From assembly GCF_033095865.1 (NCBI RefSeq), contig NZ_AP019365.1, positions 651,001 to 715,000 on the forward strand: 64,000 nt of DNA, read 5' to 3'. The translations under genes and the position numbers were made by a program. Position 1 is the stretch's first letter. The number at the start of each line of letters is the position of its first letter. The DNA is from Pseudomonas sp. KU43P. Lineage in GTDB: Bacteria; Pseudomonadota; Gammaproteobacteria; Pseudomonadales; Pseudomonadaceae. Below, one piece after another: positions 57,999 to 60,307 of the stretch. The notes under the pieces are model-generated. The model ran no database searches. It saw nothing but the letters and a program-made list of their open reading frames with translations, and was not told where the DNA came from.

Positions 57999-58685
57999 TT
58001 ACCAGGTGAGGGTTTCACCTTTGTAGTTGATGAAGCGCAGGCCGCCATGGCCGCTCTGCGCCTTGACCTGTTCGAGCATGCCACGGGTGCTGGTGAGTAC
58101 GTCGATGTCGGCGTTCTCTCCACCCATGTCGGTTTTCACCCAACCCGGGTGCATTGCCAGCACACAGAGATCCGGGCGCTGCAGGTCGACCACGAAGCTG
58201 TTGATCATCGAATTCAGGGCGGCCTTGCTGGCTTTGTACAGGCAAACCTCGCCGCCGTCCGGGATGGTGACACTGCCCAGAATCGAGCTCATGAACGCCA
58301 GTACGCCACTGCCTTGGCGTACCTGGGCGGCCAGGCGACGTGCAACGCGGATCGGTGCCACCGCGTTGGTCATGAACAGTGCGCCGATGTCCTGTTGCTG
58401 CACGGTTTCCAGGTCCTGCGGCAGGGGGCCCATGACGCCGGCGTTGATGAACACCAGGTCGAACACTTCGCCTTGTAGGCGTTGCTTCAGGCCATCGAGT
58501 TGGGCGGTGTCGTTCATCTCCAGCTGTTCGATGCGCACCCCGGGGACTTCGCTCAGCGCGCCGGGTTTTTGGGGGTCACGTACCGTGGCGGTGATGTTCC
58601 AGCCATCTTCGTGCAGCCGCTGCACCAAGCCAAGGCCGAGCCCGCGGGAGGCACCGATGATGAGGGCGGTTCTTGAGTTGGCCAT
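57999..58685 (-). CDS. Short-chain dehydrogenase/reductase
   Basis: 228 residues: NAD(P) loop LIIGASRGLGLGLV, NAG in FINAGVMGP, catalytic Tyr/Lys in CLYKASKAAL. Substrate unknown. 102 bp upstream of the deaminase on the same strand. Its upstream region contains two TGATCA palindromes one helical turn apart (58762-58778). Confidence 0.85.
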   Translation of the reverse strand: MANSRTALIIGASRGLGLGLVQRLHEDGWNITATVRDPQKPGALSEVPGVRIEQLEMNDTAQLDGLKQRLQGEVFDLVFINAGVMGPLPQDLETVQQQDIGALFMTNAVAPIRVARRLAAQVRQGSGVLAFMSSILGSVTIPDGGEVCLYKASKAALNSMINSFVVDLQRPDLCVLAMHPGWVKTDMGGENADIDVLTSTRGMLEQVKAQSGHGGLRFINYKGETLTW

Positions 58686-58827
58686 AGGAACATTCCTTTA
58701 TCGGGGTGGGAAAAGGAATTGAGAATACTGCAGGCACGGACTGTTTGCCCGCAATGAAGGGTGATCAAAAAATGATCAACGACAGATGGACGTGCGGCGG
58801 CGGGCGCTTGGCTTGTTGGCTAACGGG

Positions 58828-58836
58828 TTATCCACA
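58828..58836 (+). promoter_or_regulatory. DnaA box 1 (perfect)
   Basis: TTATCCACA. A one-mismatch copy, TGATCCACA, follows at 58840-58848, 12 bp further on. Confidence 0.75.
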
Positions 58837-58899
58837 GGCTGATCCACAGTTAATGTGCGCAATCACAGCTGACACGATTGCAGGGTGTCGCCGATCCAT

Positions 58900-58908
58900 T
58901 GTGGATAA
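58900..58908 (-). promoter_or_regulatory. DnaA box 2 (perfect, reverse)
   Basis: TGTGGATAA on the plus strand is TTATCCACA in reverse. It lies between the two direct copies. Confidence 0.75.
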
Positions 58909-59013
58909 CACTTGCCGACTCAACAGGTTAGGGCTGTCATCAAACTGTGATCAAAATATGCTCAATGCTCTGCAGGCCTTGTAACGCTTGGGCTGTAGCT
59001 AAATGCCCCAAGC

Positions 59014-59022
59014 TTATCCACA
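59014..59022 (+). promoter_or_regulatory. DnaA box 3 (perfect)
   Basis: TTATCCACA, opening the second 37-bp module, 28 bp before the stop of the IMPACT-family gene. Confidence 0.75.
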
Positions 59023-59050
59023 GGCGGGCCCACAGTTGTTGTGAGCAACC

Positions 59051-59635
59051 TCAGCGTGCTTCCAGGAGGATGCGCCCACGGCTCAGGTCTGCCAGTTGCT
59101 GTTGCAGAACAGGCAGATGGGCTTCGCCAACGGCGATGTGCAGGTCTACGCCATTGGCGGTGAATTGCTCGTCCAGCACCAGGCCATCGACCTCGGCCAG
59201 GCGTAGCTTTACCAGTGCCAGTTCGCTGAAGTTGCAACTGCAGGCATATTCGCTGCGCTGCACCAGCAGCCGCTTTGGCGCCTGCTGCAGGCATTTGTTA
59301 GCGCCACCGCCGTAGGCGCGGGCCAGGCCACCGGTACCCAGTTGGATGCCGCCGTACCAGCGGATGACGAGCACCACGACCTGGTCGCAGTCCTGCGCCT
59401 CGATGGCAGCCAGTATCGGCCGCCCGGCCGTTCCACCGGGCTCGCCATCGTCATTGCTACGGTACTGCGTACCGAGTTTCCAGGCCCAGCAGTTGTGGGT
59501 GGCGGCCAGGTCGCTGTGGCGTTCGATGAAGCTCATCGCCTCGGCGGCACTGTTGATCGGGCCGGCGAGGGTGATGAAGCGGCTCTTGCGGATTTCCTCG
59601 CGAAATTCGCAGAGGTCTAGCAGGGTAGAAGGCAT
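59051..59635 (-). CDS. IMPACT/YigZ-family protein
   Basis: 194 residues. N-terminal UPF0029 domain with SRFITLAGPINSAAEA, ATHNCWAWKLG, SNDDGEPGGTAGRPIL and VIRWYGGIQLGTGGLARAYG, the family hallmark; ferredoxin-like C-terminus (~130-194). Relatives bind nucleic acid or regulate translation factors, but the bacterial role is unclear. Confidence 0.88.
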   Translation of the reverse strand: MPSTLLDLCEFREEIRKSRFITLAGPINSAAEAMSFIERHSDLAATHNCWAWKLGTQYRSNDDGEPGGTAGRPILAAIEAQDCDQVVVLVIRWYGGIQLGTGGLARAYGGGANKCLQQAPKRLLVQRSEYACSCNFSELALVKLRLAEVDGLVLDEQFTANGVDLHIAVGEAHLPVLQQQLADLSRGRILLEAR

Positions 59636-59644
59636 AGGGGGAGG

Positions 59645-60307
59645 TCAGGCGCTCGGCGCGATGCCGCATCCTTTGAGAATGATGTGGATAAGGTTGTTGC
59701 TCGCGTCTTCCATGTCCTGCTTGGTCAGGCGGCTGCGGCCGGTGACCTGGCAGATCTGGGTGGCGAAGTCGGCATAGTGCTGGGTGCTGCCCCAGAGCAG
59801 GAAGATCAGGTGCACCGGGTCGACCTGATCCATCTTGCCCGCATCGATCCAGGCTTGGAACACCGCGGCACGGCCACGGAACCATTCACGGTAGTCGGCG
59901 CTGAAGTACTCGGTCAGGCAGGTGCCGCCGCTGATCACTTCCATGGCGAAGATCCGCGAGGCTTGCGGGTTGCGTCGGGAGAACTCCATCTTGGTGCGGA
60001 TGTAATGGCTGAGCGCTTCTCCAGGGTCGTCCTCGACGCTCAGGGCGTTGAAGGTGCTGTCCCACAATTCGATGATGTTGCTCAATACCGCGATGTATAG
60101 GCCCAGCTTGTTGGTGAAGTAGTAATGCAGGTTCGCCTTGGGCAAGCCGGCCTTCAGCGCGATGGTGTTCATGCTGGTGCCTTTGAAACCATGACGGGCG
60201 AATTCGTCTTCGGCGGCCTGGATGATGGCCTGTTCGTTCTTCTGGCGGATGCGGCCGGCGGGCTTGCCCGAGGCGGAAAGGCGATGCGCTGGGACTTCTA
60301 AGGTCAT
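59645..60307 (-). CDS. TetR-family regulator, RutR-like
   Basis: 220 residues: TetR HTH ~22-68 (IIQAAEDEFARHGFKGTSMNTIALKAGLPKANLHYYF) and a YcdC/RutR-type C-terminal domain (IFAMEVISGGTCLTEYF, WGSTQHYADFATQI). RutR-like proteins sense pyrimidines and control their breakdown; beta-alanine, the substrate of the neighbouring bauA product, is an end product of reductive uracil breakdown, which gives a plausible link. ATG at 60307 preferred over an open frame upstream. Confidence 0.85.
   Translation of the reverse strand: MTLEVPAHRLSASGKPAGRIRQKNEQAIIQAAEDEFARHGFKGTSMNTIALKAGLPKANLHYYFTNKLGLYIAVLSNIIELWDSTFNALSVEDDPGEALSHYIRTKMEFSRRNPQASRIFAMEVISGGTCLTEYFSADYREWFRGRAAVFQAWIDAGKMDQVDPVHLIFLLWGSTQHYADFATQICQVTGRSRLTKQDMEDASNNLIHIILKGCGIAPSA

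Follow-up and report, generated by a model that had tools for sequence, protein, structure and literature searches.

The closest described systems are the DARS elements of E. coli, at which DnaA exchanges ADP for ATP. In the accessible parts of this literature, the DARS core is described as three DnaA boxes at fixed spacing with box I opposite in orientation to boxes II and III (PMC5742627), DARS2 is described as using Fis and IHF (PMC4245941), and ADP release at DARS is linked to the DnaA residues D269, L290 and R227. Many proteobacterial species keep DARS-like sequences, according to the available part of PMC10380432, citing Fujimitsu 2009. The consensus sequences used here are also taken from partly accessible sources, GnTYAWWWWWTRAnC for Fis (PMC4278767) and TAAnnnnTTGATW for IHF (PMC4245941). 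A second type of non-origin DnaA-box cluster that tunes the nucleotide state of DnaA is represented by datA, which acts with IHF to promote the hydrolysis of ATP bound to DnaA.

A candidate tandem element of the DARS type occupies an intergenic gap in the window, the whole stretch of 64,000 nucleotides that was analysed (positions 651001-715000 of a single-contig Pseudomonas chromosome of 5,869,691 bp, probably from the putida group). The two genes that flank the gap are both on the minus strand, and it lies upstream of the start of an SDR gene and downstream of a YigZ/IMPACT-type gene (yigZ), which scores above the cut-off of Pfam UPF0029 and below that of NCBIfam YigZ. The GC content of the gap is 51.5%, against 64.0% for the window. 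Its two cores are modules of 35 bp, each consisting of a box, 3 bp, a box, 5 bp and an inverted box. In window coordinates, the features are the following.

57999..58685, minus strand: SDR family oxidoreductase gene, a neighbour not thought to be part of the element
58686..59050, no strand: entire gap between the two genes, candidate tandem DARS-like element, kept as one unit at the 3′ end of yigZ
58763..58777, no strand: Fis-like site 1, GATCAAAAAATGATC, fitting GnTYAWWWWWTRAnC at 15/15 positions and starting 65 bp before core A
58828..58862, plus strand: core A, triple box, TTATCCACA-GGC-TGATCCACA-GTTAA-TGTGCGCAA
58828..58836, plus strand: core A box in position III, perfect
58840..58848, plus strand: core A box in position II, 8/9
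58854..58862, minus strand: core A inverted box in position I, TTGCGCACA, 6/9
58900..58908, minus strand: reverse DnaA box between the cores, perfect here
58918..58930, minus strand: IHF-like word TAACCTGTTGAGT, weakly supported, with one mismatch to TAAnnnnTTGATW
58949..58963, no strand: Fis-like site 2, GATCAAAATATGCTC, full fit to GnnYAnnnnnTRnnC with one mismatch to the stricter consensus, starting 65 bp before core B
59014..59048, plus strand: core B, triple box, TTATCCACA-GGC-GGGCCCACA-GTTGT-TGTGAGCAA
59014..59022, plus strand: core B box in position III, perfect
59026..59034, plus strand: core B box in position II, GGGCCCACA, 5/9
59040..59048, minus strand: core B inverted box in position I, TTGCTCACA, 6/9
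59051..59635, minus strand: YigZ/IMPACT-type gene, with the element at its 3′ end

A sequence-only reading of this DNA had described three perfect and one near-perfect DnaA boxes within 195 bp, a duplicated 37-bp module and three TGATCA palindromes, all of which were recovered on recounting. Perfect copies of TTATCCACA occur at 58828 (+), 58900 (-) and 59014 (+) and the near match TGATCCACA at 58840 (+), the span from 58828 to 59022 being 195 bp; the 37-mers at 58828 and 59014 are identical at 30/37 positions, and the palindromes lie at 58762, 58773 and 58948. The boxes are also denser than random, as had been claimed: the window holds four matches to TTATNCACA, where 100 shuffled windows gave 0.53 on average and never more than 2, and the chance of finding two further boxes within 195 bp of a box is ∼6e-6 at genome-average density, a figure that is too low because box density near the origin is about three times higher, the true value being larger and still small. 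The fourth TTATNCACA match is a lone perfect box at 59683-59691, inside a TetR-type (RutR-like) open reading frame. The whole genome carries 106 copies of TTATCCACA, against 13 of the reversed word, and they crowd around the origin, with 89 of 100 listed places (106 in total) less than 1 Mb from dnaA. Two features go beyond the earlier description: a third, inverted box inside each module, which completes a fixed triple-box layout, and the atypical nature of the perfect reverse box at 58900, where 23 of 25 aligned gaps have TTATCCCCA. A structured RNA was considered and rejected, since no Rfam match at the gathering threshold was found in 58400-59400 and the hairpin-like CCCACA...TGTGGG arises because boxes II and I stand head-to-head.

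Both modules match the published orientation and spacing of the DARS core. The E. coli DARS1 and DARS2 sequences used for comparison were obtained by coordinates. DARS1, in the bioD-uvrB gap, shares with the present element three boxes in equal orientations with 3-bp and 5-bp spacers, and is likewise intergenic and located between origin and terminus; it differs in having a single core, strong boxes at II and I rather than III, and no Fis-like site at -65. The core geometry of DARS2 is equal as well, and the order core A, IHF-like word (+90) and Fis-like site (+121) on the box I side resembles its order of core, IBS and FBS. DARS2 nevertheless has one established core and no Fis-like site at -65; it carries a full Fis-consensus word at +191 on the box I side, which we infer to be FBS2-3. 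A second triple box of 3/5 spacing, matching at 22/27 positions, was seen ∼316 bp from the DARS2 core (E. coli locus L102, 1136-1170, minus strand). Sequence-level kinship with the E. coli DARS beyond the boxes was not found, and the published definition does not demand it. No triple box of 3/5 spacing at ≥20/27 was found in E. coli datA or oriC, and the geometry also stays below 20/27 in the two stretches flanking the organism's own dnaA, scanned separately. The organism's DnaA is identical to that of E. coli at 328/466 aligned residues and keeps R227, D269, L290 and R285.

A DNA search for the element gave matches in 155 of the 199 Pseudomonas genomes in which its conservation was followed, some of these matches being short or at other sites. 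The exact core pattern was found in 160 genomes with 244 matches (summed by hand) and its reversed control in none. Letting both spacers vary from 0 to 12 bp left the per-genome counts, compared by eye, unchanged, and no spacing other than 3/5 appeared in these 199 genomes. The 35-mers are without indels in 25 aligned gaps, out of 30 extracted and after leaving out five longer than 520 bp; the stretches between the 35-mers do have indels. Loss of the boxes or of their spacing in close relatives had been named in advance as grounds for abandoning a DnaA-related role, and both turn out to be kept. Among the 39 genomes that lack the exact core, yigZ is present in 37, and of 30 yigZ loci obtained from such genomes 13 have one or two triple boxes (≥19/27) near the yigZ 3′ end; the other 17, mainly from more distant genomes, have no triple box at this level. 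The tandem pair is found in at least 120 stretches from named genomes. Among 120 such stretches, cores A and B stand 202 bp apart in 96 and 183-203 bp apart in the remainder; a helical-phase rule for this distance was dropped, the values observed being 183-187, 192 and 200-203 in these 120 loci and 175 in one further genome (G065).

The site is intergenic and holds a conserved position between origin and terminus, as do DARS. Its distance from dnaA, on either arm, amounts to 0.21-0.27 of the half chromosome in 19 of the 20 genomes in which it could be placed (19 of 44 searched for dnaA, plus the window's own), the outlier being G029 at 0.73, and the site runs along the fork in 20/20; two of these positions (G171 and G176) rest on a degraded core-B match, with no triple box ≥19/27 at their yigZ. 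In the organism's own genome the site is 0.71 Mb from dnaA.

The core pattern occurs with zero mismatch at three places in this genome, A, B and a site C, and its reversed control at none. Site C is on the other arm, 669 kb from dnaA, between a histone-deacetylase-like gene and a TIGR03862 flavoprotein gene. Site C and core A share a contig in two other genomes, where they are 56-80 kb apart (G190:C1:698448 and 754073; G102:C3:779418 and 859632), unlike the own genome, where the two are on different arms. D-type modules in G032, G168 and G197 run against the fork on the arm opposite the usual A/B place, as judged by eye. A dyad of the kind CAGGCC...GGGCTGCAG is common to the B and C modules between Fis-like site and core (window 58964-59013; L061, the site C flank) and could possibly be a site for another protein.

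A fixed spatial relation to Fis-like sites is a further property of these cores. In 344 distinct cores with full flanks, where 210 strict motifs occur in 186,104 positions, the strict Fis motif stands at -65 in 51/150 A, 60/170 B, 7/12 C and 1/8 D modules (two more D at -66) and in 4/4 unclassified cores, three of which are core B of yigZ loci and one of which comes from another place. Under relaxed scoring, -65 is the position of the best site in ∼107/150 A, ∼132/170 B, 11/12 C and 1/8 D modules (ties shared); these counts are not independent, the loci being related by descent, although the A, B and C modules have different places and flanks. D-type modules are thus mostly without the -65 offset. 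For IHF, 61 of the 95 gaps in which the cores are 202 bp apart have a word with at most one mismatch at +92 of core A; the window's own word is at +90 on the other strand, and these words are suggestive only. By motif, then, the Fis-like half of a DARS2-type arrangement appears clear and the IHF-like half weak. The fis gene was not found within the 400 kb searched (5.02-5.42 Mb), and the presence of Fis therefore rests on P. putida, for which it is documented in the available parts of PMC4278767 and PMC5612765.

Further modules were sought with a sequence-only composite model built from 49 modules. It matches 43/43 Pseudomonas genomes, 39 of which had been selected for absence of the exact core, with 6-21 matches each at E ≤0.01; in the own genome there are 14 matches at E ≤0.01, some of them partial, and 28 at E ≤1. 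Three more clusters of two or three modules each were noticed there (G000:C1:5512410-5512842, 618718-619112 and 5455341-5455537), and the best module of each has a 15/15 Fis-like word at -65. In a sample of the class, 189/274 genomes were matched. The model finds neither DARS1 nor DARS2, its only match in the E. coli loci being one of 11.8 bits in oriC (L302, 919-1001), a weak alignment in which a Fis-like word is followed by a perfect DnaA box.

Because such models are only roughly calibrated, a model-free test of geometry was run. The pattern TNCACA-gap-TTATCCACA-gap-TGTGGATAA with free gaps was found in 134/369 gammaproteobacterial genomes and its control in none, and among 150 listed matches 144 have gaps of exactly 3 and 5 bp. 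Outside Pseudomonas, 27 distinct loci selected on geometry alone have their highest mean Fis score at -66 (12.3; 7.6 overall and 10.0 at the next offset), and -66 is the best Fis-like site in ∼13 of them. A flank matrix derived from non-Pseudomonas loci picks out the flanks of the window, one base off, at 0.009 for B and 0.04 for A, and scores 0.12 at DARS1 with no signal at DARS2, the values being fractions of random E. coli stretches multiplied by seven for shifts. The class-wide flank consensus from -67 to -43 before box III (L390-L419) reads tG..tAaatt.T.acCaaTtT.aca, with a conserved TTTAAC-like word after the Fis-like site. The DARS-like cores of other Gammaproteobacteria (L361-L419) share with the element the 3/5 geometry and often a Fis-like site, at -66, and differ from it in having strong boxes II and I and a variable box III; in 19 of 29 loci read, box II is perfect and box I stands at 8 or 9 of 9, as in E. 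coli. Of 368 other genomes sampled from the class, only one gave the Pseudomonas-type pattern. To see whether the class-wide matches are origins, the genes flanking the own dnaA were looked for near them, with one weak match of 40 residues in L361-L389 and none in L390-L419, a check that origins with other neighbours would escape. The own genome also contains a canonical E. coli-like core, TTCACA-AGG-TTATCCACA-ATAAA-TGTGGATAA, at G000:C1:4466380-4466411 on the minus strand (L080, 2381-2412), on the left arm and 1.40 Mb from dnaA; it scores 0.02 with the same flank matrix.

Of the roles proposed from the sequence alone (titration, reactivation, control of the SDR gene, secondary origin), reactivation is favoured because the E. 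coli DARS cores have the same triple-box geometry. The gap is best explained as a tandem DARS-type element at which DnaA would exchange ADP for ATP with Fis as helper, to which a probability of roughly 0.55 is given. In its favour are the geometry, equal to that of DARS1 and DARS2 and absent from datA and oriC at the level stated, the exact core and unvarying spacing across most of the genus, the Fis-like site at -65 (A, B and C) or -66 (non-Pseudomonas loci) together with the flanks recognized by the matrix of those loci, the relative chromosomal position and the named residues of DnaA. Against it stand the placement of the perfect box at III with a degenerate head-to-head pair, where E. coli-like cores are strong at II and I; the near absence of the Pseudomonas-type pattern from the rest of the class; the lack in DARS1 and DARS2 of a Fis-like site at -65, and their escape from the Pseudomonas model; the D-type modules off -65 and the yigZ loci devoid of a triple box; and the weak IHF-like word and the fis gene, not found in the 400 kb searched.

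The main rival is a datA-like or purely titrating cluster, which would take up DnaA soon after replication and lower free or ATP-bound DnaA by holding or hydrolysis. It suits an origin-proximal place in a box-rich region and perfect boxes that lie outside the head-to-head pairs, and since a canonical DARS-like core is present at 4466380 the tandem site could serve another use. Pure titration, however, needs neither a fixed spacing of degenerate boxes nor a Fis-like site at a fixed offset, and the missing triple box of datA argues against the datA-like variant; this rival is judged unlikely, with a chance that is still appreciable. Another reading is that the gap holds a promoter, of the SDR gene or of yigZ, under the control of DnaA and Fis. 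Both proteins are able to regulate transcription, and the gap lies upstream of the SDR start; Fis of P. putida acts at lapA and lapF (accessible parts of PMC4278767 and PMC5612765). Yet the pair lies downstream of yigZ, not upstream, and keeps to its 3′ end when the SDR gene is ∼1.2 kb off (L047, L053 and L058) or not found in the 2.2-2.5 kb of flank fetched (e.g. L081-L087). With no conserved linkage to the SDR gene, control of that gene was rejected, and a promoter role in general appears improbable. A secondary origin or origin-like element, which clustered boxes and a GC-poor gap might suggest, fares worst and is very improbable: the layout is unlike that of oriC, the triple-box geometry falls below 20/27 in E. 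coli oriC and around the own dnaA, no replication gene is among the named neighbours, and no long AT-rich unwinding element (judged by eye) is apparent in the gap.

If the tandem site acts as a DARS-type element, events can be outlined by analogy with E. coli DARS, as described in the accessible parts of PMC4245941, PMC5742627 and PMC10380432, on which DnaA binding, nucleotide exchange and an effect on initiation are here modelled. DnaA, probably in its ADP form, would occupy each core as a head-to-head pair on boxes II and I, with a third molecule beside it on the strong box III. Bending of the flank by Fis, and possibly by IHF, would allow the DnaA molecules to interact and ADP to be released. 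The departing apo-DnaA would then take up ATP, providing more ATP-DnaA for the next initiation. Such an effect would be greatest in growing cells, where Fis is abundant.

To our knowledge, little is known of how DnaA is reset between rounds of initiation outside the enterics. A literature search, conducted largely on sources short of full text, found no DARS in Pseudomonas; the kind of element is already known, DARS-like sequences having been reported from many proteobacteria (PMC10380432, in the part available), and, as far as this search reaches, three things look new: that the Pseudomonas element is tandem, that its box strengths are swapped and that a Fis-like site stands at a fixed distance on the side of box III. 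A wider proposal is put forward tentatively and is doubtful as a whole. It holds that Pseudomonas may recharge DnaA through distributed DARS-like modules, each made of a Fis-like site and a triple box 50 bp apart and occurring alone or in tandem, origin-proximal on both arms, their box strengths being swapped in comparison with E. coli. It also holds that a Fis-like site 65-66 bp away on the box III side may be the ancestral form of DARS control in Gammaproteobacteria, lost or replaced in E. coli. If the DARS-type reading of the tandem site is right, it would provide testable DARS candidates in P. putida and its relatives, and a search rule for Gammaproteobacteria in which a 3/5 triple box is combined with a Fis-like site at -65/-66. 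It would also offer a natural variant with a moved strong box, which would help to ask which boxes drive ADP release.
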